From contig CAKQDQ010000009.1 in the NCBI GenBank assembly GCA_934229335.1, positions 1-49,964 of the forward strand: 49,964 nt of DNA. Reading direction: 5' to 3'. This DNA comes from an uncultured Prevotella sp. (GTDB taxonomy: Bacteria; Bacteroidota; Bacteroidia; Bacteroidales; Bacteroidaceae). Positions 3,244 through 46,200 of this stretch are shown here, one piece after another. Within the stretch, counting starts at the first letter, position 1. Every line of letters starts with the position of its first letter. The notes beneath the pieces are model-generated. The model was not told the DNA's origin. It searched no databases and saw nothing but the letters and a program-made list of their open reading frames with translations. The translations under genes and the position numbers were made by a program.

Positions 3244-3309
3244 ATAGCTTTCGCAGTGCGATTAGATAGCTTTCGCAATGTGATTAGATAGCTTTCGTAG
3301 TGTGATGAG
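3244..3309 (-). repeat. 22-bp tandem array, GAAAGCTAT family (locus A)
   Basis: Three consecutive 22-bp units. Read on the minus strand each carries GAAAGCTATCTAATC or a variant, and the last unit reads GAAAGCTATGTGTTCGTA. The same unit and the same end unit occur at 38666-38775, where the array is on the plus strand. Confidence 0.9.
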
Positions 3310-3336
3310 ATAGTGATTGCAGAATGGGCGTTAAGA

Positions 3337-3432
3337 TATGGAGCCGAGGTTTTTAACCTCGGTTAGACTGTTAATATGTCTTTTACCGTAAGTTATGTTC
3401 TTCATACCGAGGTTGGAAACCTCGGCTCCATA
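3337..3432. repeat. Nested palindromic REP-like element
   Basis: Two 27-bp arms, 3337-3363 and 3406-3432, are inverted copies of each other with two differing bases. Each arm is itself a hairpin, CCGAGGTT...AACCTCGG, with outer TATGGAG/CTCCATA. The 42-bp spacer shows nothing. The design resembles bacterial REP/BIME or MITE elements. Confidence 0.75.
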
Positions 3433-3510
3433 ATGCAGCTACGCTGATATAACCGAATGGAAGTACCATATAAGATAGCGATTATCGTACTTCGTGGAGT
3501 TTATTTCAAC

Positions 3511-3549
3511 ATTAATCCCCATTTAATAAGACATTAATATCTCATTAAC
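3511..3549. repeat. 11-bp-phased ATTAAT-like boxes
   Basis: ATTAAT (3511), TTTAAT (3522), ATTAAT (3533) and ATTAAC (3544) start exactly 11 bp apart. The same boxes build the inverted repeat at 3626-3751. Confidence 0.7.
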
Positions 3550-3625
3550 GCTGTCTCTTGCCAGTATAATACTCAAACAAAAATATTTTGAGAATACCAA
3601 CAATATTTGTTGCTTTTATCTTTCT

Positions 3626-3751
3626 ACATTAATCACCATTAATCTAACATTAATCTTTCATTAATCTATCTCTGATGATGTTTTTGAGCATATATATACG
3701 AGAGCAAAGGCATTAATGAGAGATTAATGTTAGATTAATGGTGATTAATGT
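3626..3751. repeat. 40-bp inverted repeat of phased ATTAAT boxes
   Basis: Arms 3626-3665 and 3712-3751 are inverted copies with one or two differences, separated by 46 bp. Each arm holds four ATTAAT boxes at spacings of 10 or 11 bp. Transcribed, it would form a long hairpin; as DNA, the A/T boxes fall on one face of the helix. Confidence 0.85.
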
Positions 3752-3844
3752 TATAAAAGTAGTGCGAAGCACAATAATGACTTTTCTCAAATCATTCCTG
3801 TTTGACTATAAATAAAATATCTCGTCTGAGATATATTAATGAAA

Positions 3845-4333
3845 CTATTTCTCAATAGCCTTCAGCACCACCTTTCCAGAGTGCTTTTTGTCTACAATAA
3901 TCATCAGTAAAGGTTGAACAGAATATGACTGTTTCTCGCCCCTCTTAATGACATAGGTGAACGTAATGTCGCCATTAGCAGCCCTTTTAAGACTCTTGGG
4001 CTTCATTACGGTAGCCGTGTCAGTAACAGGTAGGGTTACGTCGATGACGTACTTCTTGTTGAAGTCAATCTCAGTAGGCTTACCATCCTTGCCCATTACG
4101 GTAGCCATGCCGAAGTACTTGTTTAGCTCCGCATCAGAAGTAATGACAGAAGGCGGCAGAGAGTCAAGGTTATTGTTTACGAAATATCCCTTTGCTTCGG
4201 TGTAAGAGACCGACATTGGTGTGGTAAGCTCAGACGCGCCAGTCCTTGCATCTATAGCCCCCATAGCCTTCTCTGTATTCAGAAAAGGAAAAGCGCAACA
4301 TACGGCGCACAGCGAGATGATAATCTTTTTCAT
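3845..4333 (-). CDS. Small secreted protein of unknown function
   Basis: 162 residues. The N-terminus (KKIIISLCAVCCAFPFLNTEKAMG) is a signal peptide with a likely signal peptidase I site near residue 25; the cysteines do not form a proper lipobox. The mature part of about 135 residues looks beta-rich, with a basic patch (KPKSLKRAANGD) and a C-terminal KKHSGKVVLKAIEK. I do not recognise the family. It is alone on its strand, converging with the lipoprotein gene across the repeat-filled gap. Confidence 0.7.
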   Translation of the reverse strand: MKKIIISLCAVCCAFPFLNTEKAMGAIDARTGASELTTPMSVSYTEAKGYFVNNNLDSLPPSVITSDAELNKYFGMATVMGKDGKPTEIDFNKKYVIDVTLPVTDTATVMKPKSLKRAANGDITFTYVIKRGEKQSYSVQPLLMIIVDKKHSGKVVLKAIEK

Positions 4334-4593
4334 TGTCCTGAATATTTTTAATACTTGCTTATGTAATGTTAAGAAAAATACTTAATCAATTTTATTATAG
4401 TTAGAGTAATGTCGTCTTACACATTCTTTATCTCATCTTGCTGGCTATTTTGTGGCTATTCATCAGTCACGATGCTCGCATCGTTCCATTTTTATATTCC
4501 CCCCAATATCTCAACAATCTGAGGTCAAAACAGCGCAAGTTATTTTCTCAACGTTACTTTGGTGTGAAAAATAACTAAAAATCTTTACGCAGA

Positions 4594-4625
4594 TTTGTTA
4601 AGATAGAGTATTTTTTATAAATTTG
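4594..4625 (+). promoter_or_regulatory. Bacteroidetes-type promoter of the deaminase gene
   Basis: TTTG at 4594-4597, a 20-bp spacer, and TAAATTTG at 4618-4625, matching the TTTG/TAnnTTTG consensus. The start codon follows 59 bp later. The rest of the 4334-4684 gap shows no feature. Confidence 0.75.
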
Positions 4626-4684
4626 CGATAGAGACGAAGTATAGAAAGATTATTTATCATCCATAAACTAAAAAATACTGACCT

Positions 4685-7047: not shown

Positions 7048-7692
7048 ATGGAGATAGAAGGACTGGACTATAACACTCAGAGAGAGAAGCTGAGGCTGAT
7101 GGCGTATGGCCGTAATATACAGCAGATGGTAGAGCAATGCGTAGCGTTGCCTACCAAGGCGGAGAGGCAACGATGCGCAAACAATATTATAGAGGTAATG
7201 AAAAGGGCTGTGCCGAGTCAGGTCGACAGCAGGGACAGAACGAAAACACTCTGGTATCACCTTGCGCTGATGAGTGATTTTAAGCTCGACATAGATTACC
7301 CCGTAGAGATAGTGCATGAGGATAAAATGGCGATACCTCCAGGGAAAATACCCTATACCAACAAGACGCTGGGCAACAGGGTGAGACATTACGGCAGACT
7401 GATGTTTGAAATGTTCGACACCCTGAAGACGATGCCTGCTGGAAAGGAACGCGACGCTTTAGCTGATAGAACGGCTGTGCAGATGTTTCACTGCCTCATG
7501 GCATGGGGAATGGGCACTGTCGACAAGGAGAAAGTGGCATCAGACATGGCGAAATATACCGACGGCGTAATACAGTTGGATGTTGATAAACTGAATTTCG
7601 ACAGCATAACGAAGAATAATAATCGCTACGGAAATAACGAACGCGGTAGGGCGGATTATCAGAATAGAAAGAAAAAGAAGAAACGTAAGTGA
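7048..7692 (+). CDS. DUF4290 protein
   Basis: 214 residues, 13 bp downstream of tsaB. It matches the Bacteroidetes-only DUF4290 family by its position between tsaB and murA and by the opening GLDYNTQREKLRLMAYGRNI and the helical, charged body. The C-terminus is a strongly basic tail (NRKKKKKRK), suggesting nucleic-acid or ribosome contact. No enzymatic motif is visible and the function is unknown. Confidence 0.8.
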   Translation: MEIEGLDYNTQREKLRLMAYGRNIQQMVEQCVALPTKAERQRCANNIIEVMKRAVPSQVDSRDRTKTLWYHLALMSDFKLDIDYPVEIVHEDKMAIPPGKIPYTNKTLGNRVRHYGRLMFEMFDTLKTMPAGKERDALADRTAVQMFHCLMAWGMGTVDKEKVASDMAKYTDGVIQLDVDKLNFDSITKNNNRYGNNERGRADYQNRKKKKKRK

Positions 7693-7782
7693 TTTCTTAA
7701 CTAACGTTTAGCGATTTTTTTACTGAAGTTTAGTGACTTCTTTACCGTCGCTAAGCAGACCCCCACAACAATAATGCTTAAC

Positions 7783-13054: not shown

Positions 13055-14683
13055 TTACACCCTATACAGCAGACCATTCTTAAGGTCTATGTCGGCTGTT
13101 TTCTTTACCTTTACGTGTAGTTTCTTGCCAGTAGCGTTAAAAGGTATCTGGTTTACGAAACGATATAGGCGTGGTCGTTTGAAGTTCGCTATGGCAGGGC
13201 TTTCCTTGCAGAACTCGTCCAATTCCTCAGGAGTAAGACTTTCATCGTTTCTTACAACGTATGCGGTAACTAACTGTCCACGTATCTTATCTGGAACAGA
13301 AGTAACTATGCAGTCTTTTACCTTAGGATGCGTGTTCAATACCGCTTCTACCTCCGAAGGGTAGATATTCTCTCCTGACGATATTATCATGTCGTCCTTA
13401 CGGCCTACAATGGTTATGAATTGGTTTTCGTCCCATACTGCGAGGTCGTTTGTATAGATAAAGTCCTTGTAGAACTTCTTTTTCGTCTCTGCCTCGTTGT
13501 TATGATAGCTGTAAGATGATTTTGCTGGTGAACAAATAATAACCTCACCAACCTCTGTTGCGTCCTTGGCGATAAGGTCATCAGGCTCTGCTTTGCGGTC
13601 TTCATACACCTTTACAACGCGTACATCGTCGTCAACGCATGACGCACCTGCTGTACCTGCGTTCTCTGGTAGGTCGAATGGGCGTAGGAATGTGTTCCAA
13701 AAGGTCTCGGTAGTACCGTAACCGTTGAAGATGTTTGGCGTGAGTACGCGCTGGTAACGTATGCAAGCAGAACGCTCCAAGGGGCTTCCCATTGTTACGA
13801 TACCCTTCAATGATTCCAGATGGTAGGCTAAACGCTCCTGTTCATCGGCTAACTCTTCAAGTACGGTAGGTACGCCTATAACGAATGTTATCTTGTATTT
13901 GTCAATATATTTCAGCGTGTTTATGGCAGAGAATTTGCCCATAATCACCAGTGTTGCACCTGCATAGAAGATAGTACAAGGACCAGCACAGTGTATGCCA
14001 CCGCGGTGAAACCACGGCGTTGTGTTCATTGTTGTGTCTTTGTAGCTCATAGGAAAGTGCATCATTACGTCGTGAGCGGACAGCACTTCGTTGATAGACG
14101 TTAGTGAGACGCCCTTGGGTCTGCCTGTGGTTCCTGAGGTATAGAGACGTGTGGTCTCATCGTATATGTTGTATTCGCAGGTAAACGGTGGCTCTTCTGT
14201 ACTTGCATCCTTTACGTAGTCTGTATATGAAATGAAGTCTTCATCACTTTCTCCGCCTACGATAACAGCTCTCTTAGGCTTGAATTGCGACATCTGGATG
14301 GCTTCTTTGACCGTATTTCTGTATGTTGCGTCAAAGATTAGGACCAAAGGTTTGGAGTCATCGATGTTATATGCCAGCTCACCTGCGCTGAGTCTGTAGC
14401 TTGCTGGGCAGCAAACGCAGTGTGTTTTATGCGCTGCTACGTATGCGAAAGCAAACTCAGGACAGTTCATAAGGAGTGTCATCACGACGTCTCCCTTCTT
14501 GTAACCGTCTGCGATAAGCGAGTTGGACAGCCGGTTAACGTCAGCGTTCAGTTCTGTGTAGTTCCATTTTTGCGCCTTAACGGGATTAATCATAGCGGTC
14601 TTCTCTGGGTAACGTCTTACGTTTCTCATGAATCCTTCAATCCACGTATAACGGCTTTCAAAAATCTTTTTGAATTCAATCAT
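13055..14683 (-). CDS. Acyl-CoA ligase (AMP-binding, class I adenylate-forming)
   Basis: 542 residues. Core motifs of the ANL superfamily are present: the P-loop-like YTSGTTGRPKG (about residues 178-191), GYGTTETFWN (A5), TNDLAVWDE and VGRKDDMIISSGENIYPSEVE (A7/A8 hinge), and the catalytic Lys in PFNATGKKLH near the C-terminus. These enzymes activate a carboxylic acid to acyl-AMP and then acyl-CoA. Chain-length preference cannot be read. The acyl-CoA dehydrogenase and Etf genes 6 kb away suggest the product may feed that module, though the genes are not in one operon. Confidence 0.88.
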   Translation of the reverse strand: MIEFKKIFESRYTWIEGFMRNVRRYPEKTAMINPVKAQKWNYTELNADVNRLSNSLIADGYKKGDVVMTLLMNCPEFAFAYVAAHKTHCVCCPASYRLSAGELAYNIDDSKPLVLIFDATYRNTVKEAIQMSQFKPKRAVIVGGESDEDFISYTDYVKDASTEEPPFTCEYNIYDETTRLYTSGTTGRPKGVSLTSINEVLSAHDVMMHFPMSYKDTTMNTTPWFHRGGIHCAGPCTIFYAGATLVIMGKFSAINTLKYIDKYKITFVIGVPTVLEELADEQERLAYHLESLKGIVTMGSPLERSACIRYQRVLTPNIFNGYGTTETFWNTFLRPFDLPENAGTAGASCVDDDVRVVKVYEDRKAEPDDLIAKDATEVGEVIICSPAKSSYSYHNNEAETKKKFYKDFIYTNDLAVWDENQFITIVGRKDDMIISSGENIYPSEVEAVLNTHPKVKDCIVTSVPDKIRGQLVTAYVVRNDESLTPEELDEFCKESPAIANFKRPRLYRFVNQIPFNATGKKLHVKVKKTADIDLKNGLLYRV

Positions 14684-14822: not shown

Positions 14823-15108
14823 GATGCGTGTTTTGTATGTCTATTTCTTGGTTAGCCCATGTTTTTATTGTTGTAGTGCAATGTTTGGTTCGTTGTTATA
14901 CCAAGTTCCTATTGTTGTAGTGCAATGTTTGGTTCGTTGTTATACCAAGTTCCTATTGTTGTAGTGCAATGTCTGGCTCGTTGTTATACCAAGTTCCTAT
15001 TGTCGTAGTGCAATGTCTGGTTCGTTGTTATACCAAGTTCCTATTGTTGTAATACAATGTTTATTTCATGGCTAAACAATGTTTGTTTCGTGGTAATGCC
15101 GCATGGAT
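14823..15108. repeat. 44-bp repeat made of 22-bp half-units (locus F)
   Basis: The segment ATTGTTGTAGTGCAATG recurs at 14867, 14911, 14955, 14999 and (degenerate) 15043, exactly 44 bp apart. Each 44-bp unit splits into two related 22-bp halves, one starting ATTGTTGTAG and one starting TTCGTTGTTATACC. Degenerate 22-bp units extend the array to both sides, about 13 units in all. Confidence 0.9.
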
Positions 15109-15298
15109 GGCAGTTACGAAACGTAGAAATACGGTTAAGCATCATAGCAAGATATGCCCTTCCCAAATGCGATGCAAAGTTACATAAAGTGATTGTAAGG
15201 ATTCTACTTTGTTCATTATTAAAAACCGAAACGTCGTTTTGGTGGGACGAATTGTAACTGCTGTTCATTGAATTTGCTCACAATCTGATAAAAGATGC

Positions 15299-15474
15299 AA
15301 TCCGTTATCTTTGCTTCTACAATCCGTTATCTTTGCTTCTACAGTCCGTTATCTTTGCTTTTCTAATGCGTTATCCTTGCTTTTCTAATCCGTCATCCTT
15401 GCTTCTCTAATCCGTTATCATCCCTTTTGCCGTCTGTTATCTTTACTTTTCTAATCCGTTATTATTGCTTTTAC
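15299..15474. repeat. 22-bp tandem array, CCGTTATC family (locus E)
   Basis: Eight units of exactly 22 bp with core AATCCGTTATCTTTGCTT. The first two are identical; units 3-8 diverge by point changes only, with no insertion or deletion. The sequence is unrelated to the GAAAGCTAT arrays but has the same period. Confidence 0.92.
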
Positions 15475-15487: not shown

Positions 15488-15762
15488 AATGAAAAAAACG
15501 CACCGCTACTCCTCACGAGCTGCGGTGCGTTTAAAGTATGTTTAACTTAAAAACCTTTTCATTGAAAAAGAAGAACCTCACGGTCTTTCTTAGTCATCCA
15601 AGAGTTAAACAATCTTTTCTAACCTAATAACTAAAACCTAAATCTATTATATATCTACTAACCTAAACAATCTTTGCGATATGTTACACATTGCGTAATA
15701 TGTAACCTTTTTGATATTGTCTTTTGAAATGTAGAACATTCGAGATGTCCTTTATTTCTTTT
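15488..15762 (-). ncRNA. Possible small RNA between promoter and terminator
   Basis: A consensus minus-strand promoter (15770-15801) predicts a start near 15762, and a minus-strand rho-independent terminator ends near 15488, giving a transcript of about 275 nt with no good reading frame apart from a 12-codon ATG frame (MTKKDREVLLFQ). The plus strand of this stretch also resembles Prevotella-type mRNA leaders (CTAATAACTAAAACC), so a leftover leader is a rival reading. No known RNA family was recognised. Confidence 0.35.
15495..15532 (-). terminator. Rho-independent terminator (minus strand)
   Basis: AAACGCACCGC pairs with GCGGTGCGTTT; on the minus strand the stem is followed by seven T. The plus-strand exit has only three T. 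Confidence 0.8.
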
Positions 15763-17103: not shown

Positions 17104-18456
17104 ATGAAGATTACATTTGAAAACCCAGAGAAGGTCAGCGGCGTTTTGACTCTCACTGTAGAGGAAGCTGATTATCAGGACAACGTTCGCAAAGCCCTCA
17201 ACGAGTATCGTAAAAAGGCAAACATCCCTGGTTTCCGTCCAGGTCAGGCTCCTATGTCACTCATCAAGCGTCAGGTAGGTTCTCAGGTAAAGGTTGATGC
17301 TATCAACAAGCTTGTAGGCGAGAAGCTTTACGGTTATATAAGAGAGAACAAGATCAATATGCTTGGCGAGCCTGTTCAGCATCTTGGTCAGGAGCCTGTA
17401 GATCTTGATGCACCAGCTCCTTATACACTTCAGTTCGACATAGCCGTAGCACCAGAGTTCGACCTCAAGCTCGACAAGCGTAACAAGATTGTTTACTATG
17501 ATATCAAGGCAGACGATAAGCTGATTGACCAGCAGATAGACGCTTTCGCAAGCCGCACTGGTTCTTACGAGAAGGTAGACGCTTACGAAGACAACGATAT
17601 GTTGAAGGGTGACCTCCGCGAGTTGAACGAAGATGGCAGCACAAAGGAAGACGGTATCGCTGTTTCAGAGGCTGTGCTGATGCCTTCATACATCAAGGTA
17701 GTGGAGCAGAAAGACCTCTTCAACGGTGCAAAGGTAGGTGACATCATCACCTTCAACCCTAAGGCTGCATATCCAGAGAGCACTGTAGAGATTTCTTCTA
17801 TGCTCAAGATAACCAAGGAAGAGGCAGAGAAGGTAGAGTCAAGCTTCTCTTACCAGATTACAGAAATCACTCGTTACAAGAAGCACGAGGTAAACCAGGA
17901 GCTCTTTGACCAGGTTTTTGGTAAGGACGAAGTAAAGGACGAGGCAGCTTTCCGTGCTAAGGTAGCAGAGGGATTGCAGGAGCAGCTCAACACAAGTGCA
18001 GAGTATCGTTTCCTCTCTGACGTTCGTAAGTACGTAGAGGACAAGCTCGGTGAGGTGAAGTATGCTGACGATCTCATGAAGCGTATCATGCTTGCCAATA
18101 ACCAGGACAAGGGTCAGGAGTACGTAGACAAGAACTACGAGGCAAGCATCAAGGAGCTTACATGGCACCTTGCAAAGAACAAGCTCCTTGAGCAGTGTGA
18201 TGTTAAGATTGACGACGCAGACGTTAAGGAAGCCGCTAAGGACATGGCACGTATGCAGTTCGCTCAGTATGGCATGACAAACATTCCTGAGGAGTACCTT
18301 GACAACTACGCAGAGGAGATGCTGAAGAAGCCTGAGCAGGCAGACCAGTTTGTTAATCAGGCTGCTGACCGCAAGCTCATGACCGCTCTGAAGGACGTTG
18401 TTACTCTCGATACCAAGGAGGTTTCTTTCGAGGAGTTCTCTAAGCTCGAGGCGTAA
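17104..18456 (+). CDS. tig: Trigger factor
   Basis: 450 residues. Trigger factor is the ribosome-bound chaperone and prolyl isomerase that meets nascent chains. The ribosome-docking loop IPGFRPGQAPMSLIKR lies in the N-terminal domain (about residues 39-57). The middle PPIase region (about 150-245) is diverged, as usual in Bacteroidetes, and the C-terminal helical domain follows. Codon choice is strongly biased, as expected for a highly expressed gene. It is monocistronic with its own promoter and a strong terminator. Confidence 0.93.
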   Translation: MKITFENPEKVSGVLTLTVEEADYQDNVRKALNEYRKKANIPGFRPGQAPMSLIKRQVGSQVKVDAINKLVGEKLYGYIRENKINMLGEPVQHLGQEPVDLDAPAPYTLQFDIAVAPEFDLKLDKRNKIVYYDIKADDKLIDQQIDAFASRTGSYEKVDAYEDNDMLKGDLRELNEDGSTKEDGIAVSEAVLMPSYIKVVEQKDLFNGAKVGDIITFNPKAAYPESTVEISSMLKITKEEAEKVESSFSYQITEITRYKKHEVNQELFDQVFGKDEVKDEAAFRAKVAEGLQEQLNTSAEYRFLSDVRKYVEDKLGEVKYADDLMKRIMLANNQDKGQEYVDKNYEASIKELTWHLAKNKLLEQCDVKIDDADVKEAAKDMARMQFAQYGMTNIPEEYLDNYAEEMLKKPEQADQFVNQAADRKLMTALKDVVTLDTKEVSFEEFSKLEA

Positions 18457-22118: not shown

Positions 22119-23159
22119 TTATTTATTATTCTGCTTGTAGTACTTAATGAGTTTTGGCACCACTTCCTCTACGGTACCGTTAATTACATAGTCAGCAATG
22201 GCGTTGATAGGAGCGTCAGGGTCGCTGTTGATAGATATAATAATACCCGCGTCCTGCATACCTGCGATGTGCTGTATCTGTCCAGATATGCCGCAGGCGA
22301 TGTAAACCTTAGGACGAACCGTTACGCCCGTCTGGCCTATCTGACGGTCGTGATCAATCCAGCCAGCGTCTACAGCCGCACGGCTTGCGCCAACCTCGGC
22401 GTGCAGTTCCTTAGCAAGTTCGAAGAGTTGGTCGAAGCCTTCCTTTGAGCCTACACCGTAACCACCGGCTACTACTATAGGGGCACCCTTCAGGTTATGC
22501 TTTGCTTCCTCTACGTGGCGGTCAAGAACCTTCACTACATACTCTGTCTGAGGAACATATTTCGCCACGTCGTGACGGATTACCTCCCCCTTATAGTTCT
22601 CGTCCAGTACCTCTTTCTTCATCACACCCTCACGTACGGTCGCCATCTGTGGGCGGTGCTCAGGGTTGACGATAGTAGCAACGATGTTGCCACCGAAGGC
22701 AGGACGTATCTGGTAGAGCTGCTGTTCGTAGTGCTTCGTCACCAGTTTGCCTGCCTCGTCCTTTACCTTCATGTCGAAGTCGCCAATCTCAAGCTCTGTA
22801 CAGTCAGCCGTAAGACCGCTGAAGAGTGCAGACGATACACGTGGACCGAGGTCACGACCTATCACCGTTGCACCCATGAGGCATATCTGCGGCTTCTCCT
22901 CCTTAAAGAGGTTTACCACCAATGCGGTGTGAGGATTAGAGGTATAAGGGAACAATCCCTCAGCGTCGAACACGTGAACCTTGTCAACGCCATACTTCAT
23001 CACCTGCTGTTCTACACCGTCAAGTCCGCTGCCAGCAATGATACATTCCAGTTCTACGCCAAGGGTGTTAGCCAGTTTGCGTCCCTTAGTGAGCAGTTCG
23101 AGCGACACATCCTTAACCTTTGTGCCCTCTATCTCGCAATATACAAAAACGTTATTCAT
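22119..23159 (-). CDS. etfA: Electron transfer flavoprotein subunit alpha
   Basis: 346 residues. The N-terminal half resembles the nucleotide-binding fold of EtfB. The C-terminal FAD domain is complete: GGYGVGSKEGFDQL, VGASRAAVDAGW, QIGQTGVTVRPKVYIACGI, SGQIQH and INSDPDAPI. With EtfB it carries electrons from the dehydrogenase to the quinone pool or to another acceptor. It lies between etfB and the dehydrogenase; the gap to etfB is unusually long (341 bp) and holds a repeat element. Confidence 0.94.
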   Translation of the reverse strand: MNNVFVYCEIEGTKVKDVSLELLTKGRKLANTLGVELECIIAGSGLDGVEQQVMKYGVDKVHVFDAEGLFPYTSNPHTALVVNLFKEEKPQICLMGATVIGRDLGPRVSSALFSGLTADCTELEIGDFDMKVKDEAGKLVTKHYEQQLYQIRPAFGGNIVATIVNPEHRPQMATVREGVMKKEVLDENYKGEVIRHDVAKYVPQTEYVVKVLDRHVEEAKHNLKGAPIVVAGGYGVGSKEGFDQLFELAKELHAEVGASRAAVDAGWIDHDRQIGQTGVTVRPKVYIACGISGQIQHIAGMQDAGIIISINSDPDAPINAIADYVINGTVEEVVPKLIKYYKQNNK

Positions 23160-23500
23160 AATTTTTGTTGTTTAGTCGTCTTCGTGTTTCTGTGATAGTG
23201 AAAAAAGATATTATCGTGTTCCGTATCAACTTACAATCTGAAAGCTGTAAAATCGCATTGCGATAACGTAGCTTTCATGTTGCGATTAGGGCTTAATCGT
23301 AATGCTATTGCACCCAAATCGTGCTGCGGCAATATAGCTATTAAAAATCGTAAGTAAAACGACGGTGTTTTCTTACAGATTATAACCTATAGCCGTATAG
23401 TCCCTCAGATGGTATATACAGGATATTGTAAAGCAATAATGCTATTGAAAAAACTCAGTTAGACAATAAATCACTATCTGTGGAAACACTAATAATCGAC
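23160..23500. other. Gap between etfB and etfA holding a repeat element
   Basis: 341 bp without a gene. Positions 23231-23385 are the locus-B repeat element; the flanks are AT-rich leader-like sequence. No second promoter with a full consensus was seen. Confidence 0.7.
23231..23385. repeat. 155-bp element with 22-bp periodicity (locus B)
   Basis: It begins TTACAATCTGAAAGC and ends CTTACAGATTATAA, near-inverted ends. Inside, five consecutive 22-bp blocks start at GAAAGCTG, GATAACGT, GATTAGGG, TATTGCAC and GGCAATAT, the first four ending in TGC. Block 2 carries TAGCTTTC, the inverse of GAAAGCTA in other loci. ATCGC-ATT-GCGAT forms a small hairpin. A sister copy lies at 45966-46119. Confidence 0.8.
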
Positions 23501-24382
23501 TTATCCAATAATCTTTTCGTTAAGCAGTTCGACAATAAGGTTGTTGATGTCCTCATCAGATCCCGTCATGGTGCGGCTCTCCTTCGCTTTAAACACGATG
23601 TTCTTCACCGCCTTCACGTTAGTAGGCGAGCCAGCCTTACCAATCTGCTTCGGGTCGCACTCAATGTCAGCCGCTCCCCACTGCGTGATGTTCAGGTACG
23701 GCTTGCGTGCTATCATCTCCTCTAACTTCTCTTTATTTTCTGGTGTACGCTCGGCAGGAACAGTAGCGTTCTTATATTTCATCACGAGTTTAGCGTTGCG
23801 TGGACGGCAAGGTGCGGCACTGCCATTAACGGTAACCACCAGTGGCAACGGAGCCTCTACAGTCTCCACGCCACCGTCGATGTGACGCTTAATAACCGTC
23901 TTGCGCTCCTTCTCATCAAGAGAAACAATCTCCTCAGCGTATGTCACCTGAGTCAGTCCGAGCTTCTCCGCTATCTGTGGTCCCACCTGTGCGGTGTCAC
24001 CATCAATAGCCTGGCGTCCACCGATGATGATGTCGAAGTCACCAATCTTCTTGATAGCCTGTGCCAGAGTGTATGATGTAGCGAGAGTGTCGGCACCACC
24101 GAGAGGTCTGTCAGTCACAACATAACCACAGTCAGCACCACGATAGAGAGCCTCCCTTATAACTTCCGCTGATTTTGGCAGTCCCATGGTAACGACAGAG
24201 ATAGTAGAACCAGGGAATTTGTCCTTCAAGATAAGAGCCTGTTCCAGTGCGTTGAGGTCGTCTGGGTTGAACACAGCAGGCAGAGCACTGCGGTTAACCG
24301 TACCTTCCGGAGTCATGGCGTCAGGTCCTACGTTTCTTGTGTCAGGTACTTGTTTGGCAAGTACAACGATTTTCAAACTCAT
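23501..24382 (-). CDS. etfB: Electron transfer flavoprotein subunit beta
   Basis: 293 residues. The Etf N-terminal fold starts LKIVVLAKQVPDT; GGADTLATSYTLAQA and GGRQAIDGDTAQVGPQIAE are the nucleotide-binding parts, and LPLVVTV with AAPCRPRN follow the family pattern. It pairs with etfA. It is the promoter-proximal gene of the Etf/dehydrogenase run, with a consensus promoter at 24510-24540. Whether this Etf bifurcates electrons cannot be decided from the sequence alone. Confidence 0.94.
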   Translation of the reverse strand: MSLKIVVLAKQVPDTRNVGPDAMTPEGTVNRSALPAVFNPDDLNALEQALILKDKFPGSTISVVTMGLPKSAEVIREALYRGADCGYVVTDRPLGGADTLATSYTLAQAIKKIGDFDIIIGGRQAIDGDTAQVGPQIAEKLGLTQVTYAEEIVSLDEKERKTVIKRHIDGGVETVEAPLPLVVTVNGSAAPCRPRNAKLVMKYKNATVPAERTPENKEKLEEMIARKPYLNITQWGAADIECDPKQIGKAGSPTNVKAVKNIVFKAKESRTMTGSDEDINNLIVELLNEKIIG

Positions 24383-24957: not shown

Positions 24958-25857
24958 ATGAAAGACAGACTGGTACGTTTTGATTGGGCAATCAAACGGT
25001 TGTTACGTCAAAAGGCTAACTTTGATGTGCTTGAAGGCTTCCTTACTGTGTTCATTGGCGAGAAGGTGACAATAGTGGATATACTTGAAAGCGAGGGCAA
25101 CCAGTGTGATGAGAGTGACAAATTCAACCGAGTAGACATAAAAGCCAAGAATAGCAAGGGCGAGATAATAATAATAGAGGTGCAGAATACGAGTGAAGTA
25201 TTCTACCTTGAGCGTATACTATATGGCGTAGCCAAAGCCATAACAGAGCATATCAACCTTGGAGATTCTTATGAAGAGGTAAAGAAAGTGTACTCAATAA
25301 GTGTTCTCTACTTTGACTTGGGTGAGGGCGAAGACTATCTTTATAAAGGACAGACGAGCTTTGTGGGTATCCATACCAATGACGAGTTGAAGATAACAAC
25401 AAAGCAACGTGACGCTATAGTACGCAAGGCTCCTCAGGAGATATTTCCTACGTACTATCTCATTCGGGTCAATAACTTCGACAAGGTTGCGGTATCTCCT
25501 ATGGAAGAGTGGATGCGCTACTTGAAGAAGGGCGAGATTAGCGAAGATACTAAAGCACCTGGTCTTAGAGAGGCACGTGAAAAACTGCTTTACTATCAGA
25601 TGGATGCATCAGAGCGTCATGCTTATGATGAACACTTGAATGCTGTGATGATACAGCATGACGTGTTAGGTAATGCACGTGCAGAGGGATTAGCAGAGGG
25701 ACGTGCAGAGGGATTAGCAGAAGGCCGTGCAGAAGGTCGTGCAGAAGGCCGTGCAGAAATGGTACGGACTATGGCAGATAACGGTATGACAATAGAGCAG
25801 ATAGCAAAGTTCACGGCTATGACTGTTGATGAAATAAAAAAGATTGTAGAGAAATAA
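24958..25857 (+). CDS. Rpn-family PD-(D/E)XK nuclease / putative transposase
   Basis: 299 residues. The Rpn core is present: Asp60 in FNRVDIKAKN and Glu74-x-Gln76 in IIIIEVQN form the nuclease site, and YLERILYGVAKAI and YSISVLYFDL are typical. Rpn proteins are DNA nucleases tied to RecA-independent recombination and, in recent work, to phage defence. Residues 240-268 are a 4-residue repeat (RAEGLAEGRAEG) encoded by 12-bp DNA repeats, followed by a short helical end (MTIEQIAKFTAMTVDEI). Its stop codon lies in the left arm of an inverted-repeat element. Confidence 0.85.
   Translation: MKDRLVRFDWAIKRLLRQKANFDVLEGFLTVFIGEKVTIVDILESEGNQCDESDKFNRVDIKAKNSKGEIIIIEVQNTSEVFYLERILYGVAKAITEHINLGDSYEEVKKVYSISVLYFDLGEGEDYLYKGQTSFVGIHTNDELKITTKQRDAIVRKAPQEIFPTYYLIRVNNFDKVAVSPMEEWMRYLKKGEISEDTKAPGLREAREKLLYYQMDASERHAYDEHLNAVMIQHDVLGNARAEGLAEGRAEGLAEGRAEGRAEGRAEMVRTMADNGMTIEQIAKFTAMTVDEIKKIVEK
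25677..25760 (+). repeat. 12-bp in-frame repeats in the Rpn gene
   Basis: Seven degenerate copies of GCAGAAGGCCGT and GCAGAGGGATTA encode RAEG/LAEG. Because the unit is a multiple of three, slippage would change linker length without shifting the frame. Confidence 0.85.
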
Positions 25858-35372: not shown

Positions 35373-38300
35373 TTAGAATCTTCCTCCGCGAGGACCCCCA
35401 CCGAATCCTCCTGGCGGTGATCCCATAGGACGATCGCCACGCATACCCTCTCTGTCGCCGCCGCGATGTTGGTTTCTTCCATCCTTGCCACCAAAGGAAT
35501 TGAGGCGGAAAATCACGTGAAGCATAGCGTAACTGTTGATAGAGTTGTAGTAGGTATCGCTACGCATGGTTGATGATATGCTACGACTAAACGAACTCAT
35601 CTGGTGCAGGATGTCATAGAACTGTAGTGAAATGATGAGCGGTTTACCCTTCAGTAAGCTTTGTGACAGTTGTGCGTTCCAGATAAACTCATTGGTGTTT
35701 GCGGCATCATCGTCGTATCCGCGACGTGACTGCATATGCGCGCCAGTAGAGATACTCATGTTCCATGGGGTGTTAATGGTAATGTCAGTACCGTAGTTAA
35801 AGTTCCATGTGTCAAGATTTGTTGCAGGGCGCAGTTTGTTACGGTTGATACTGTATGTCACATTGCCATTCAGTTCCACCTCCAACCATTCGTTACGGTA
35901 GCTGAATCCCAGTCGTTCGTTAATCTCCGTACTGCGAGTGTAGTTCTTGTCGGGTTCAGCTGTGCGGTTAAGGTTTACGTAGCTCACGCTGTTAGTGTAC
36001 CTTGTCTTGAGGAAACTGTTAGCACTCCATACGCCAGTGGTATCAAGTGAGGTGTTATACATGAACGCTCCCTCAATGTTCCAGTTGCCGTTGATGTTCA
36101 TAGGCTGTGTAGTACGTCCACCCGTAGTAGCGTCATATCGCTCCATTGTCGACACGCTGTTGCGTGTGTTGCTATGGTTTATGAACGCCATGATAGCCCT
36201 TTGTCTCCTCTGTACGTAGTTATTGTATTGCAGTGAGAATCTGTTAGTGAACGATGGCTTCAGGTCAGGGTTACCCTTTGAAACATTCAGCGGGTCCGTA
36301 TTATCCGTAATCGGCATGAGGTCAGTCATAGAAGGCTGCGATGTGTAGCCACGGTAGTTTAGGCGCAGGCTCTTTTGCTTGCTGAAACGATAGCGGAAGT
36401 CGAACGTCGGTGTGAAGTTGCTCACGCTGCGCCTTGATATAGTGTCGAGACCGAGATGCTTATAGTGCAGTTCTGATGTCTGTGGCTGTATCATTGCGCC
36501 CACGTTGAGGTTGTAATGATCAGTGGTGCGACGCAGGGAGAGTTCTATCTCGTGGATATAGTTGTCGTATTCAGAGAAACGACTTTGGTCAGTGTCGAGG
36601 TAAGAAGATAGAGGATTCTCTGCGTTAACAAACGGGTTGAGGTATGACGCGAAGTCTCGATATACAGGAGTCAGTCCCTCACCGAAGTTTGCCAGGCGGC
36701 TAAAGTCGTGCGTCTGTCGGTCGCTACGGCTGTTCTGAAAGCGGTATTGGTAGCGCATCTGTATGAACGTGGCTCGCGCTATAGGCTCGCTGTACACGGC
36801 AGAGAGTTGATAACTCCAGTTCTTGTTAGGCGTAATGTTATATCGGTTGCGGTAATATGTAGAGTCTGCGGTGCTCGGACGGTACAGTGTAACAAACTGT
36901 GTAGAGAGGCTCTCGCTGTCAGAAGTACTGTTAGAGTAACGTCCCTGCACGGTGATGTTACGACCGTTTCTCGACAGACGTCGTGAGAGGGTAGCGTTAA
37001 TGTTAAAGTTTGTGTTGGTACTGTATGAGAGAGAGCTGTTGCGTGTGCTGTTAACAAGCATAGAGTCAAGCACGGCAGAAGCGTCCACCAACTGGTTTTC
37101 CTTCGCCTTCTCATAGAGAGCCTTGCTCAGTTCCGTCATCTCTATCATGTTCAGAGGGTCTGCCACAACAGCTCCAGTGTAAGGGTTCGTGATAGTATAT
37201 GGGTCATGCCTGAACGTAGCGTTAGCACTTGTAGAGCGCGAGTCGTTACTTGAGGTAGATAGGCTTGGTCGTATTTGAATCTTCGTCAGTGTGTCGGGAC
37301 GCCACTCTATGTTTGCGTTGAAGTTCCATCTGTTATTGCGTGTGTATCTCTGAGACAGTGAATTAGAGAATGACGGTGTGGTAGACAGAAAACGTTCCGT
37401 AGCCTGTGATGTGGTATTATCCGTGTCGCCATGATTCCATCGCATAGATATGTCGGCACGCAACTTGTCCTTCTTCTCATAGTTATAGTTCATGCCAAGC
37501 ATCTTAGGGGCAGAAAGTCCCTGATTGCCGTTCATGCCGCCACGACCACCAGGACTGAATCCGCGGTCACCAATGTTGTTAGCGTTGCCAAAAACCATCA
37601 GTCGGCTATCGGCCTTCATATATCCTGCAAACACGCGCTCTGCGTAGCGTGACTTCGTTCCCACGGCAAGGTCAATGTTAGTCATTATACCTTTGTTCAT
37701 GCCCGGCTTGATAGCGAAGTCGAGCACGGTGCTTTCCTCGCCATCGTCAACGCCCGTCATCTTCGCCAAGTCACTCTTTTCCTGATACGCCTTCACTTTG
37801 TCAACGATATTTGTTGGCAGATTCTTCAGAGCCGTCTCAGTGTCGCCAGTCATAAACTCCTTGCCGTCGACCTTGATTTTGTTCACCTCTTTGCCGTTAA
37901 TAGTAATCTTACCGTCGTCGCTAATCTGTGCTCCAGGCAAACGTCTTACGAGTTCTTCAAGCACCGAACCTTCAGGAGTGCGGTATGCGGCTGCGTTATA
38001 CACAAAGGTATCTTCCTTTACCACTACTTTGGCAGCGATGCCATTAGCGATTACTTCCTTTAAGAGTACGGCGTCAGTCTCAAGATTCATCTTGCCGAAG
38101 GCGAAGTCCTTGTCGTCTTGTATGGTGACGTTGCGAGTCACAGTCTTGTAGCCTACGTTTGACATCCTGATGATATACTTGCCGTTTTCTGGTGCTACAA
38201 GGGTGAAGTTACCCTCATCGTTGGTCACGGCTCCTGCCACGTAGACAGAGTCTTTCGCTTTAAGTAGCTGAATAGTTGCTTGTAGTACGGGTTCACGCGA

Positions 38301-38399
38301 CTCTCTGTCGAGCAGAGTACCCGTAATCTTTCTCTCTTGTGCCAAGGCTGTTGCTGCCGTGCAGACAAGTAGCATTAAGGCAAGAAGGGTCTTTTTCAT
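35373..38399 (-). CDS. TonB-receptor-like outer-membrane beta-barrel protein
   Basis: 1008 residues. Signal peptide 1-20 (ending ATALAQ), then a carboxypeptidase-regulatory-like Ig domain (about 22-105, with RKITGTLLDRESREPVLQA), a plug-like domain (about 110-230, LEELVRRLPGAQIS and KVKAYQEKSDLAKMTG), and a large barrel of the OMP_b-brl_3 kind with many N/S/R-rich strands. The last 40 residues are rich in Gly, Arg and Pro and end in Phe. No SusD partner is adjacent, so it is not a standard SusCD pair. Members are thought to import large ligands or act in export; the ligand is unknown. Confidence 0.85.
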   Translation of the reverse strand: MKKTLLALMLLVCTAATALAQERKITGTLLDRESREPVLQATIQLLKAKDSVYVAGAVTNDEGNFTLVAPENGKYIIRMSNVGYKTVTRNVTIQDDKDFAFGKMNLETDAVLLKEVIANGIAAKVVVKEDTFVYNAAAYRTPEGSVLEELVRRLPGAQISDDGKITINGKEVNKIKVDGKEFMTGDTETALKNLPTNIVDKVKAYQEKSDLAKMTGVDDGEESTVLDFAIKPGMNKGIMTNIDLAVGTKSRYAERVFAGYMKADSRLMVFGNANNIGDRGFSPGGRGGMNGNQGLSAPKMLGMNYNYEKKDKLRADISMRWNHGDTDNTTSQATERFLSTTPSFSNSLSQRYTRNNRWNFNANIEWRPDTLTKIQIRPSLSTSSNDSRSTSANATFRHDPYTITNPYTGAVVADPLNMIEMTELSKALYEKAKENQLVDASAVLDSMLVNSTRNSSLSYSTNTNFNINATLSRRLSRNGRNITVQGRYSNSTSDSESLSTQFVTLYRPSTADSTYYRNRYNITPNKNWSYQLSAVYSEPIARATFIQMRYQYRFQNSRSDRQTHDFSRLANFGEGLTPVYRDFASYLNPFVNAENPLSSYLDTDQSRFSEYDNYIHEIELSLRRTTDHYNLNVGAMIQPQTSELHYKHLGLDTISRRSVSNFTPTFDFRYRFSKQKSLRLNYRGYTSQPSMTDLMPITDNTDPLNVSKGNPDLKPSFTNRFSLQYNNYVQRRQRAIMAFINHSNTRNSVSTMERYDATTGGRTTQPMNINGNWNIEGAFMYNTSLDTTGVWSANSFLKTRYTNSVSYVNLNRTAEPDKNYTRSTEINERLGFSYRNEWLEVELNGNVTYSINRNKLRPATNLDTWNFNYGTDITINTPWNMSISTGAHMQSRRGYDDDAANTNEFIWNAQLSQSLLKGKPLIISLQFYDILHQMSSFSRSISSTMRSDTYYNSINSYAMLHVIFRLNSFGGKDGRNQHRGGDREGMRGDRPMGSPPGGFGGGPRGGRF

Positions 38400-38665
38400 C
38401 TTTGTATGTAATGGTTAATGTTTTTTTTCTTTTTTGTTTCGGAATTACATAACTATGACACGTAAAAATCATAAAAGTTTATATAGTGTCTGAATTTTTC
38501 TCAAAAAAAGTAATATGTAAGTAAATGTGCTGGGTTATTTGAGTAAAATTTTAGGGCAAAATATTCATGTTGCTCCTACAAAGAAAGAACGTTGCCACAT
38601 AAAAATAGGTGCTATCCTATATCAAAAATAATTCAAGGTACTTCCTTCTGAATAAAGATGGCTTT

Positions 38666-38775
38666 GCGAAAGCTATCTAATCGTGTTGCGAAAGCTATCT
38701 AATCGTGATGCGAAAGCTATCTAATCGTATTACGAAAGCTATGCAATCGTGTTACGAAAGCTATGTGTTCGTAGA
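38666..38775 (+). repeat. 22-bp tandem array, GAAAGCTAT family (locus C)
   Basis: Five exact-length 22-bp units, core GCGAAAGCTATCTAATCG. The first three differ by one or two bases, the fourth has GCAATCG, and the last reads GAAAGCTATGTGTTCGTA, the same end unit as in locus A (3244-3309). Confidence 0.93.
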
Positions 38776-43368: not shown

Positions 43369-43430
43369 ATTTATATCTTCTTGTTCGTATCGTTACCTGA
43401 AATGTATGTAGAAATATACATAATCAAGTG

Positions 43431-43459
43431 CAAAGTTAATAATTAAATCTGATAACAAA
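43431..43459 (-). promoter_or_regulatory. Probable lysS promoter
   Basis: Minus-strand TAACTTTG (43431-43438) with TTTG at 43456-43459; the spacer is 17 bp, shorter than the usual 19-21, so the -33 part is uncertain. Confidence 0.5.
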
Positions 43460-43502
43460 GAACTTTTTTAGGAAAAAGTGGTTGCAATAGCTACTTTTTA
43501 TC

Positions 43503-44168
43503 CTACTTAAAGCCTACCTTGCACAGTATATCAGAGAAAGTGTAAGGTTGTGATAGTATTGCGAATATGGTCAAAGTGATGGCTGTTGTCACCATCACTA
43601 CGCGTGCGTTGAGTATCTCTCGTTTGGTGGCGAAATGTAGGTAGTGCTCATTTATCCACATTAGTACGGCACTAACAATGTATGCGAGCACAAAGCCTCC
43701 AAGTATGTCGCCAGGGTAGTGGTAGCCAAGGTATACACGAGAATAACATACCAGTAATGCCGTTACTATCATTGTGCGCGAAACTATTTTGTCGCGGAAG
43801 AACCTAACAACCACGAATGTCAGTAGCCAAATGTTGGCAGAGTGGGCGGAAGGAAAGCCGCAGCCACTCCCTCGCTTTCCGTTGACGATGTGAACCATAC
43901 TGGAAATGGGGTTGTCGGGGTTGCTGGGGCGTAGTCTTCCAATCCAAGGGCGCAGCAGATGAGCGTTAGCCCAGTCGGTAAAGAGCATGCCTGCGCCTAT
44001 GGTTATCAGTATGATGGCGACGCCCTTCCATGAGTAGTTGCGCCAGACTATGTACAGAATGCTGAAGTAAAGCGGTATCCATACAGTCTTAAGACTGATG
44101 AAATACATGAAATTGTCAAGAAAGACGTTGTGGTGTCCGTTGATAAAAAAGAAAAGTTGAGTATCCAT
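43503..44168 (-). CDS. PAP2-family membrane phosphatase
   Basis: 221 residues from the ATG at 44168; a longer frame to 44255 would add 29 residues with no membrane character. Five or six hydrophobic helices. The three PAP2 motifs are RPWIGRLRP, PSAHSANIW and SRVYLGYHYPGDILGG, carrying the catalytic His residues. Substrates in the family include phosphatidate, undecaprenyl diphosphate and lipid A phosphates; the exact one is not clear. Confidence 0.85.
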   Translation of the reverse strand: MDTQLFFFINGHHNVFLDNFMYFISLKTVWIPLYFSILYIVWRNYSWKGVAIILITIGAGMLFTDWANAHLLRPWIGRLRPSNPDNPISSMVHIVNGKRGSGCGFPSAHSANIWLLTFVVVRFFRDKIVSRTMIVTALLVCYSRVYLGYHYPGDILGGFVLAYIVSAVLMWINEHYLHFATKREILNARVVMVTTAITLTIFAILSQPYTFSDILCKVGFK

Positions 44169-44467
44169 GATTTTGTGATGTGGTTGTATTTCTTTTACGC
44201 TGCAATGCTTTGAGTCATAGCAGTAACATCGAAGAAGAGTTTGCAAAGTTAGCAAAAATATCCAAAAAAGTTACAAAATATAAAAGTTTTCTACCAAAAG
44301 CGTGTGCGAATGAAAAAAAAAGTGTAACTTTGCCTTTGAATAAACCGATAACCAACACTTTCTTTTTCGTAGAGTCTTGTTGCGGAATGACAGAGCGAAG
44401 CCGTTGCGATAGTGTACGAAAAGGAAAATAAGAAACTAACTAACAGCTATTATTCACAAATACTACT
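44169..44467. promoter_or_regulatory. Divergent region and rhaB leader
   Basis: A -7 box TAACTTTG at 44325-44332 (plus) predicts a rhaB start near 44340, with no good TTTG upstream, as expected for a promoter that needs an activator. The 130-nt leader contains CTTTTTCGTA (44362-44371) opposite TACGAAAAGG (44415-44424), a stem that could fold in RNA. On the minus strand TAACTTTG at 44244-44251 may serve the PAP2 gene. Confidence 0.55.
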
Positions 44468-45943
44468 ATGGAAAATAAATATTTCTTTGCCGTTGATTTA
44501 GGCGCGACAAGTGGTCGTACTATTGTAGGCGGACTAAACGATGGTAAGATTGAACTAAAGGAACTGACACGCTTTGATAATAATCTTATAGAGGTGAACG
44601 GTCACTTCTATTGGGATATTTATGCCCTTTATTTTGAGATTATCAAGGGTCTAAAGGAAGCGAAACGTCAAAACCTTAGCATTACCAGTATCGGTATCGA
44701 CACATGGGGAGTAGATTTTGTGTGCGTGGCAGAAGACGGTAGCGTCAGTCAGCCAATCGCATACCGCGACCCTCACACCTTCGATGCGATGGAGGATTAT
44801 CTTGAAAACGTAATGTCAAAGGAGAAGGTGTACGACGTTACGGGTATACAGTTCATGAACTTCAACTCTATCTTCCAGTTGTATGCCATGAAGCGTGCTG
44901 GCAATTCTGCTCTTAAGAATGCTCAGAAGATACTCTTTATACCAGATGCCTTAAGCTATATGCTGACAGGAAATATGGTATGCGAATATACTATAGCATC
45001 AACAGCTCAGCTGCTCGACCCACGTACAAAGCAACTTGACCCACGTCTGCTTGCTTCTCTTGGTCTTACGCAGTCTAAGTTTGGCAGAATGGTGAACCCT
45101 GGCGATCTTATCGGTGCGCTGACAGATGCCGTTCAGAAGGAAACAGGTCTCGGTGCTGTACCAGTGGTAGCCGTTGCAGGTCACGATACAGGCTCTGCCG
45201 TAGCAGCGGTGCCAGCAAAGAACGAGAAGTTCGCTTACCTCTCAAGCGGCACATGGTCGCTGATGGGTATAGAGACCAAGGAGGCAATAATAAATAAAGT
45301 GTCATACGACCGTAACTTCACTAACGAAGGTGGCATAGAAGGCACTACACGCTTCTTGAAAAATATCTGCGGTATGTGGCTGTATGAGCGTTGTCGTAAG
45401 GAGTGGACCGATGCTCCTAAGTCGCACCCAGAGCTACAGGCAGAGGCAATGAAGCAGCCTGCGTTCCAGAGCATCATCAATCCAGACGATCCAATGTTCG
45501 CAAACCCAGTCTCAATGGTAGAGGCAATAAAGAGCTACTGTGAGCAGACGGGTCAGCACGTGCCACAGGGTTACGCAGAGACCTGTCGTTGCATCTTTGA
45601 GAGTCTTGCTCTGCGTTACCGTCAGGTGTTCAGCTATCTCACCGAGATGGCGTCGTTCCCAATCGACGTTCTCCACATCATTGGTGGCGGATCACTCAAT
45701 AATTACCTCAACCAGTTTACTTCTAACTCTCTCGGAGTAGAGGTTCTCGCTGGTCCACAGGAAGGAACAGCGTTAGGCAATATCATGGTTCAGGCAAAGG
45801 CTGCAGGCGAGGTGAAAGACCTTTGGGATATGCGTAAGGTAATAGCCAATAGTCTTGAGCTAAAGAGATTCACTCCAGCCGATAAGGAAGAGTGGGACAA
45901 GGCATACGAGAGATTCCTCGACATCGTAGCAAAGAAAGGGTAG
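44468..45943 (+). CDS. rhaB: L-rhamnulokinase
   Basis: 491 residues, FGGY kinase family. It phosphorylates L-rhamnulose at C1 with ATP. The phosphate-1 motif FAVDLGATSGRTIVGG starts near residue 7; GIDTWGVDFVCV and AVAGHDTGSAVAAVP hold catalytic and binding residues, and HIIGGGSLNNYLNQF is the adenosine motif. It is the first gene of the rhamnose operon; the gap to rhaA (257 bp) holds a repeat element. Confidence 0.94.
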   Translation: MENKYFFAVDLGATSGRTIVGGLNDGKIELKELTRFDNNLIEVNGHFYWDIYALYFEIIKGLKEAKRQNLSITSIGIDTWGVDFVCVAEDGSVSQPIAYRDPHTFDAMEDYLENVMSKEKVYDVTGIQFMNFNSIFQLYAMKRAGNSALKNAQKILFIPDALSYMLTGNMVCEYTIASTAQLLDPRTKQLDPRLLASLGLTQSKFGRMVNPGDLIGALTDAVQKETGLGAVPVVAVAGHDTGSAVAAVPAKNEKFAYLSSGTWSLMGIETKEAIINKVSYDRNFTNEGGIEGTTRFLKNICGMWLYERCRKEWTDAPKSHPELQAEAMKQPAFQSIINPDDPMFANPVSMVEAIKSYCEQTGQHVPQGYAETCRCIFESLALRYRQVFSYLTEMASFPIDVLHIIGGGSLNNYLNQFTSNSLGVEVLAGPQEGTALGNIMVQAKAAGEVKDLWDMRKVIANSLELKRFTPADKEEWDKAYERFLDIVAKKG

Positions 45944-46200
45944 CCCCGTTACGTTACATATCAACTTACAATCTGAAAGCAATCTAATCGCCTTGCGATT
46001 GCATAGCTTTCGCATGATGATTAGGTACAAATCGCAAGACGAAAGCACCCAAATAGCATAGCGGAAGTAAACTGGTGAAAATTGTAAGAAAAAGATGCGC
46101 TTTTACTTATAGATTGTAATAATTATGTGTATAGACAGCGTTATCAGATATAAACAAGAACTATAATACATCAAAATACAAAACAAAACTAACTAAGACA
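45944..46200. other. Gap between rhaB and rhaA holding a repeat element
   Basis: 257 bp with no gene. The locus-D repeat occupies 45966-46119; the remaining 80 bp before rhaA are A-rich leader sequence without a full promoter consensus. Confidence 0.7.
45966..46119. repeat. 154-bp element with 22-bp periodicity (locus D)
   Basis: It begins TTACAATCTGAAAGC and ends CTTATAGATTGTAA, close to inverted ends. Successive 22-bp blocks start GAAAGCAATC, GATTGCATAG, GATTAGGTAC, GAAAGCACCC and GGAAGTAAAC. Block 1 is nearly identical to the units of locus C; block 2 carries ATAGCTTTCGC, the inverse. AATCGC-CTT-GCGATT forms a hairpin. Its sister copy is 23231-23385. Confidence 0.82.

Follow-up and report, generated by a model that had tools for sequence, protein, structure and literature searches.

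The window that we analyzed is a stretch of 49,964 bp from an uncultured Prevotella sp. (contig CAKQDQ010000009.1), which gene content and protein matches place in the Bacteroidales, near Prevotella. Between its genes, which are simple open reading frame (ORF) calls, lie noncoding repeats with a 22-bp period, and these repeats are the subject of this report. An earlier note on this DNA had listed six intergenic arrays of exactly that period. We found that four of them are clean arrays of 22 or 44 bp and that the other two, at 23231 to 23385 and 45966 to 46119, are degenerate elements in which 22 bp is still the best lag. The locus used most often for comparison below, L001 of the Prevotella metagenome assembly G001, was the closest of 80 loci fetched with the window's RhaA protein; G001 is collinear with much of the window from 5 to 49.5 kb, with rearrangements in places and a DNA identity of about 71 to 85%.

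Two of the clean arrays belong to one family, here named GAAAGC, which has four loci within the window. The array at 3244 to 3313 (minus strand; 3.2 copies, by Tandem Repeats Finder and direct reading) lies between convergent ORFs; its unit reads ATAGCTTTCGCAGTGTGATTAG on the plus strand and is matched on the minus strand at 3235, 3257, and 3279. The array at 38664 to 38775 (plus strand; 4.6 copies at 38664 to 38764) lies upstream of an outer-membrane gene (35373 to 38399, minus strand). Neither has terminal inverted ends. Upstream of an AMP-binding gene (13055 to 14683, minus strand), a 44-bp array at 14866 to 15062 (plus strand) is built of two alternating 22-bp units in 4.5 near-identical copies, and diverged 22-bp units on both of its flanks reach about 14823 to 15108. 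The fourth array, at 15298 to 15474 (plus strand), has eight copies of the CCGTTATC unit and adjoins a stretch, 15494 to 15675, that is conserved with G001. In all four, copies differ by substitutions only (0 to 5 per 22-bp copy and 0 to 2 per 44-bp copy), which bears out the earlier statement that the units differ by base changes and never by length. Substitutions tend to rise from end to end along the arrays, with counts of 0, 0, 2, 3, and 5 in successive copies of the 38664 array. As an observation in its own right, the copies at 38664 to 38764, 15298 to 15474, and 14866 to 15062 tend to be most alike at one end, as if the arrays were renewed or grown one-sidedly. The asymmetric arrays at 14866 to 15062 and 15298 to 15474 look like local tandem expansions that have the same period; they may differ in kind, and their inclusion with the others is less certain.

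The two degenerate elements resemble miniature inverted-repeat transposable elements (MITEs). One (155 bp, 23231 to 23385, plus strand) lies between two ETF genes (23501 to 24382 and 22119 to 23159, both minus strand) and has the ends TTACAATCTGAAAG and TTACAGATTATAA; the other (154 bp, 45966 to 46119, plus strand) lies between an FGGY kinase gene (44468 to 45943) and rhaA (46201 to 47454), both on the plus strand. They share an identical left end, TTACAATCTGAAAGC, and similar right ends that are near-inverses of the left, as in a MITE; by eye, the ends of each match inversely at 9 of 10 bases. No ORF of at least 90 amino acids covers either element. Neither was called as a tandem array, and their degenerate bodies mix direct and inverted half-units, with 22 bp as the best lag in both (identity of 0.45 over 23228 to 23345 and 0.51 over 45966 to 46072). 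Furthermore, five of the eight best dyad axes in each element are exactly 11 bp apart (23258, 23269, 23280, 23291, and 23302; 45993, 46004, 46015, 46026, and 46037). Because a 22-bp period with one dyad places an axis every 11 bp, period and axes are one property and not two. With up to two mismatches, the left end TTACAATCTGAAAGC was found twice in the window, 6 times in G001, 3 times in the rhaA loci, twice in named Prevotella and Parabacteroides, 4 times in other loci, and twice in the control, and five control patterns gave 0 to 1 match in G001 and 0 to 4 in the rhaA loci. The excess in G001 falls partly inside that genome's own lattice copies, and a distant link between the lineages of the window and G001 is therefore possible, though unproven.

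We used two measures of period. An array detector that ignores sequence required at least 26 matches in windows of 33 bases, and a lag spectrum, which needs no array detection, gave for each lag the average degree to which intergenic DNA matches itself. All five intergenic arrays that the detector found in the window have a period of 22 or 44 bp and fall into four families. They include an array that the earlier note overlooked, a weak one of 2.6 copies between two ORFs at 7688 to 7745 (no strand assigned; Tandem Repeats Finder and detector). Across six Bacteroidota DNA sets (2.5 Mb including the window, excluding the phylum Y1 loci and the small loci L081 to L100), with lags 44 and 66 folded into 22, period 22 accounted for 21 of 59 independent families and for 21 of the 36 with periods of 18 to 24, a binomial P of about 1e-9 against a flat expectation. 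Dinucleotide-shuffled intergenic DNA gave no array in any set. Through the folding, seven lag-66 pieces of one 65- to 68-bp array in the non-Bacteroidota control, probably a CRISPR, were counted as 22; the enlarged, unfolded control of 500 kb held 19 arrays, none at 22 or 44.

The lag spectra and the shuffles were compared over intergenic stretches of at least 100 bp, in which the window has four arrays. Lag 22 was at the top of the spectra in the window (z of 6.2, followed by 44 and 11), G001 (10.1), Prevotella nigrescens (4.1), and Prevotella oral taxon 299 (5.2). Set by set, lag 22 was first in 6 of 11 Prevotella-type sets, with the window counted, and second to lag 44 in one. A mixed Bacteroidota sample gave it a z of 0.7, and 500 kb from other phyla gave 0.3; the control intergenic DNA for the spectra was small (39.7 kb). 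In Parabacteroides distasonis, lag 23 led (2.2) and lag 22 was third (2.0). In Escherichia coli alone, lag 22 came first with a z of 1.9 in 3.5 kb, which we took as noise. A claim for the whole phylum was dropped because the 20 stretches of the phylum sample (400 kb) held a single lag-22 array. Arrays of another abundant class, with periods of 7, 14, and 21 and apparently a 7-bp unit, occur in intergenic DNA of several Bacteroidales loci, and the lag of 21 seen in several sets probably goes with these 7-bp repeats as a separate class.

In relatives, the 22-bp period belongs to dispersed families. We counted 23 period-22 arrays in 400 kb of G001, in four families, with 44 and 66 again folded in; most of those listed belong to one family, whose copies start with AAAAGGGTGCTGATTAC and end with its inverse. 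The half-element of this family gave 141 plus 144 matches in G001 (285 genome-wide), 20 plus 15 in G033 (35), and none in the 10 other genomes searched. Elements in G001 were sought by their inverted 17-base ends, so that those with indels in the ends would be missed. Of 48 pairings of a left with a right end (nested ones included), 45 had a distance of 37, 59, 81, or 103 bp, and the remaining three, at 234 to 278 bp, join different elements. When half-sites with 0 to 2 mismatches in 12 were collected (86, 55, and 64 matches), 108 of 110 neighbors lay on the 22-bp lattice. Among the 21 elements that are 81 bp long, the mean number of differences from the column consensus is 12.2, an estimate of substitution that inverted inner blocks inflate. 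Conservation drops just outside the element ends in most of the 71 flanks, and some flanks are part of a larger composite repeat. One element common to G001 and G033 aligns over 81 bp without an indel; at one locus, these genomes differ in length by 22 bp, but outside the lattice, and we left this difference out of the count. Paired longer ends in the 400 kb of G001 were limited to elements of 109 and 131 bp, and no genome-wide search for full-length elements was made.

Other genomes have families of their own. The G004 (Prevotella sp. P3-122) unit, CACGCAAAGCTTTGCA, had 72 plus 72 matches in that genome and none in seven others; its core is a palindrome, and the two strands therefore largely count the same places. 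All 52 neighbor pairs among the 100 G004 places listed were spaced by multiples of 22. The G036 unit had 13 plus 8 matches and none in seven other genomes, and its family is a longer element with 44-bp direct steps in three of nine pairs and 43-bp inverted steps in six of nine. Reversed-pattern controls for the G001, G004, and G036 searches gave no matches. The GAAAGC family of the window matched 1 of 398 genomes from the genus of G001, namely, G278, with six matches; two of the G278 arrays that were read end in an inverted copy kept in register. GAAAGC is the one family of the window's three or four for which we have a dispersed form. The 44-bp array had no match across 12 related genomes, and the CCGTTATC family had only eight scattered matches with two or three mismatches, in four of the 12, versus five matches for the reversed pattern. 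Additionally, lag 22 was best in five of six tested segments of a dispersed intergenic repeat of P. nigrescens. Because G001, G004, G036, G278 with the window, and P. nigrescens each have their own family on a nearly equal lattice, several lineages are alike in this respect. Plasmid records offered no second strain in which variation in unit number could be followed.

The same site can also hold different content in different genomes. At the AMP-binding gene, where the window has the 44-bp and CCGTTATC arrays, the conserved stretch is adjoined in G001 by another 22-bp array, CGGATATAAAAGAAGGACGAGG, whose unit is not significantly related to those of the window (outside the best 22 of 105 pairs). 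G051 has a third 22-bp family there, at a looser threshold (25 of 33). A close homologue of the AMP-binding gene occurs in six genomes (69 to 85% identity); the upstream DNA was readable in five (not G033), and an array was present in two, G001 and G051. The conserved stretch itself (window 15494 to 15675; L176, about 17548 to 17726) is AT-rich, noncoding, and hairpin containing, lies between the ompA-like and AMP-binding genes, and belongs to no Rfam family. Upstream of the outer-membrane gene, where the window has its 38664 array, G001 holds another 22-bp family. The rhamnose-gene gap measures 213 bp in the window, with the element at 45966 to 46119, versus 14 bp in G001, and the ETF-gene gap measures 341 bp, with the element at 23231 to 23385, versus 110 bp.

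The shared period is not matched by shared letters. Units from different genomes had a mean best circular match of 10.23 of 22, versus 10.30 for shuffled units, and 10 of 676 pairs reached at least 14 matches, for which shuffles averaged 5.7 with a maximum of 12. A hidden motif behind all families was tempting by eye and was rejected, since shuffled units match equally well on average. Some families are nonetheless related: among hand-picked units, window GAAAGC and G278 agree at 18 of 22 positions and oral taxon 299 and G051 agree at 17 of 22, and of 105 such pairs, 5 had a P of <0.01 and 13 had a P of <0.05, when about 1 and 5 are expected. Therefore, common descent explains part of the common period. 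The earlier note had read a shared period without a shared sequence as a constraint on spacing; with units that on average are no more alike than shuffles and spacing held far more tightly than sequence, that is a fair inference, to be qualified by the related families. These results suggest that the 22-base spacing, roughly two helical turns, matters more than the letters.

We see about an even chance that these sites are mostly copies or remnants of dispersed, noncoding, intergenic, MITE- or REPIN-like elements, private to a lineage, whose half-sites are phased for a DNA-binding partner. The elements are dispersed in private families, present or absent between species, and rigid in their lattice, and their inverted copies stay in register; the DNA-binding partner, the helical-face reason, and the mobilizing enzyme are what we infer. 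Substitution with very few length changes, together with in-register inversion and quantized element length, implies that position along the helix is conserved. The helical repeat of bacterial DNA in vivo is close to 11 bp, and half-sites 11 or 22 bp apart thus share one side. The body of an element would consist of short direct and inverted half-sites set on a lattice with 22-bp steps, and with a dyad axis at each 11 bp, or roughly one turn of the helix, these half-sites would come to lie on the same side of the DNA. The partner could be a nucleoid protein, a topology protein, or the factor by which the element is mobilized, and it would bind the row of half-sites on one face. Its need for phasing would act as selection, such that changes in length are lost, whereas substitutions build up and one family replaces another between species.

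Several observations weigh against this interpretation. We identified neither a binding protein nor a transposase and saw no target site duplication by eye in those flanks of the window elements and G001 copies that were read. The gap differences between the window and G001 fit insertion and deletion equally. Indels are rare and not absent: 2 of the 110 G001 neighbor pairs are off the lattice, and one G004 array (L284) has a visible 1-bp shift. Palindromy is only modestly above that of shuffles over all families (mean of 11.7 versus 10.7), and the score of 8 for the CCGTTATC and 44-bp window units is under the shuffle mean. In a comparison family of G001, GAGACGATGTA, spacing between hairpins varies (6 of 11 at the mode) and internal spacing is fixed (25 of 25) to the same degree as that of the lattice; strictness of spacing by itself is therefore not unique. 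Periods 21 and 23 occur too. Lag 22 was marginally first in the pooled Prevotella genus sample (2.6, with the next lags at 2.5) and, at 3.0, just second to lag 21 in 79 Bacteroidales rhaA neighborhoods. The enrichment of 22 bp over other periods holds by family count and in the spectra described above and does not extend to 4 of the 11 Prevotella-type sets (G036, G021, G087, and G232), in which lag 22 does not lead.

Common descent with neutral tandem expansion would do without a partner: an ancestral 22-bp minisatellite or MITE would have spread by slippage or unequal exchange, with the period inherited while the sequences drift. The recognizably related families among the 105 pairs, the nearly identical copies of the 44-bp window array, and the apparent difference of about one unit between G001 and G033 at one common array are all in keeping with it. 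However, by general expectation, so much substitution under neutral drift should bring more small indels than a lattice kept by 108 of 110 neighbors allows; inverted copies keep register; and units from different genomes resemble each other, on average, no more than shuffles do. We consider this account rather unlikely. Still less probable, in our judgment, is duplication with a fixed step of about 22 bp, for example, through the long target site duplications of some element, followed by expansion, with a spacing that has no function. Such a process would yield unrelated sequences with one period and would suit the different arrays upstream of one AMP-binding gene in the window, G001, and G051 (the last at its looser threshold of 25 of 33). 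It does not account for families that are dispersed, have fixed ends, and contain inversions in register, and no single-copy ancestral state was found.

A function at the level of RNA or cruciforms, with hairpins that act as terminators or mRNA stabilizers, as has been proposed for other intergenic repeats, draws on the near-perfect palindromes of several Bacteroidales units and on folding: for one complete G001 element, the fold is far better than those of shuffles (z of -11.1), and the 44-bp window array has a z of -3.6. The three other window stretches that were folded gave z values of -1.7, -1.7, and 0.3, however, and the linkers in G001 lack compensatory pairing and tend to the reverse (31 A-T, 1 G-C, 23 A.C, and 19 G.T). 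Nor is the bias of G001 elements toward convergent genes significant (13 of 42 versus 26 of 144 intergenic gaps, P of 0.085, with four in-ORF clusters dropped). RNA structure is thus the poorer general explanation, and we give it a small probability. The remaining candidate, mobilization of REPINs by a RAYT (a Y1 transposase), gains from the lineage specificity that REPINs likewise have and from the frequency of Y1_Tnp matches, present in 83 of 118 Bacteroidota genomes sampled and in 64 of 100 in the genus sample. Moreover, the one Y1 gene of G001 adjoins a 44-bp array, and the dispersed 22-bp family has a copy no more than about 700 bp away. The nearest flanks of that gene are, however, other palindromes; at 11859 to 13155 of L180, the RAYT-like gene is flanked by CCCGGGG... 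and GCCCTTTCAGGGC, then by the 44-bp array, and further out by the family copy. Arrays of 21 to 23 bp occurred at 5 of 30 genus Y1 loci versus 3 of 29 comparison loci (P of 0.71) and at none of 30 phylum Y1 loci. G036 has no Y1_Tnp match by Pfam search despite its own lattice family, and a Y1 transposase is not the agent there. We regard this last account as very improbable in general.

Among known systems, the REP, BIME, and REPIN repeats of E. coli and Pseudomonas are short, palindromic, intergenic, and lineage specific and form direct and inverted clusters. The elements described here resemble them in each of these respects, but we know of no fixed 22-bp lattice in that group. REPINs need a RAYT, which the carrier genome G036 lacks by Pfam search, and Y1 loci are not enriched in arrays. 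Plasmid-origin iterons are direct repeats near 22 bp that are phased for binding on one face, at one locus per replicon and with a Rep gene. Unlike them, the present repeats occur at many chromosomal places, and no Rep family was found among 30 window proteins scanned. CRISPR arrays differ as well, in that the window units run head to tail without spacers and the 30 ORF products scanned with Pfam include no Cas family. Rfam and tRNA scans of the window gave no match, and two search patterns gave none in viral contigs.

The earlier note knew of no described family that fits, which was too strong. The nearest described element is BrickBuilt, a MITE of Porphyromonas gingivalis that, in the parts of its description used here, has 23-nucleotide (nt) units, IS5-like ends, promoter activity in E. 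coli, and a unit number that varies between strains (PMC4596501); according to the same source, tandem repeats of 22 and 23 nt had been described before in strain W83. Those parts also describe tandem units of about two helical turns between a leader and a tail, with short inverted ends, and an intergenic, dispersed, and species-restricted distribution, to which our elements can be likened (for distribution, as tested on the GAAAGC family); some BrickBuilt copies lack leader and tail, as do the window arrays at 3244 and 38664 (PMC4596501). Unlike BrickBuilt as described there, the four clean window arrays have 22- or 44-bp units, G001 elements are lattice from end to end, and, by eye, the terminal inverted repeats GAGACCTTTGCA and variants differ from the window's TTACAATCTG end, the window elements starting with TTACAATCTGAAAG (PMC4596501). 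With unit length and terminal repeats both different, the window elements work like BrickBuilt and are not filed under it. PINSR, a 188-bp noncoding intergenic repeat of Prevotella intermedia and P. nigrescens, is also probably close; it has 177 and 184 copies in two strains, is restricted to one clade, and, in the sections used here, is given no terminal inverted repeat and, in section 3.4, no internal period (PMC4755523). The P. nigrescens repeat that we found is likewise dispersed and intergenic, with a best lag of 22, and is probably PINSR, a match made by description and not by consensus (PMC4755523).

Three further observations concern repeats and units of other kinds. An 11-bp repeat (ATTAATCTAAC and ATTAATCACC) runs for about four copies at 3626 to 3668 and is followed after 43 bp by its inverse at 3712 to 3753, a mirrored array that the earlier note had also overlooked. 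Repeats of 24 and 12 bp lie at 25677 to 25758, near the 3' end of a PD-(D/E)XK nuclease family transposase gene (24958 to 25857). The CCGTTATCTTTG units contain a TAnnTTTG-like box, and given the promoter consensus, we considered but did not adopt the idea that they might form a promoter array.

What is new here is the common lattice beneath private sequences; in our full-text searches of open-license papers, we saw no report of a common 22-bp lattice across Bacteroidales repeat families. It is possible, if on balance doubtful, that many Bacteroidales carry fast-evolving dispersed intergenic elements that are read by geometry, through half-sites 11 or 22 bp apart on one helical face, and that the sequence preference of the partner that recognizes them differs among species but the spacing code does not. 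If true, this would be a family of bacterial repeats conserved in spacing and free in sequence. Repeats are usually grouped by sequence, and here it is period and register that persist; therefore, lineage-specific repeats that look unrelated, such as BrickBuilt, the present families, and probably PINSR, may belong to a single kind, for which lag-22 autocorrelation of intergenic DNA would be a simple marker.

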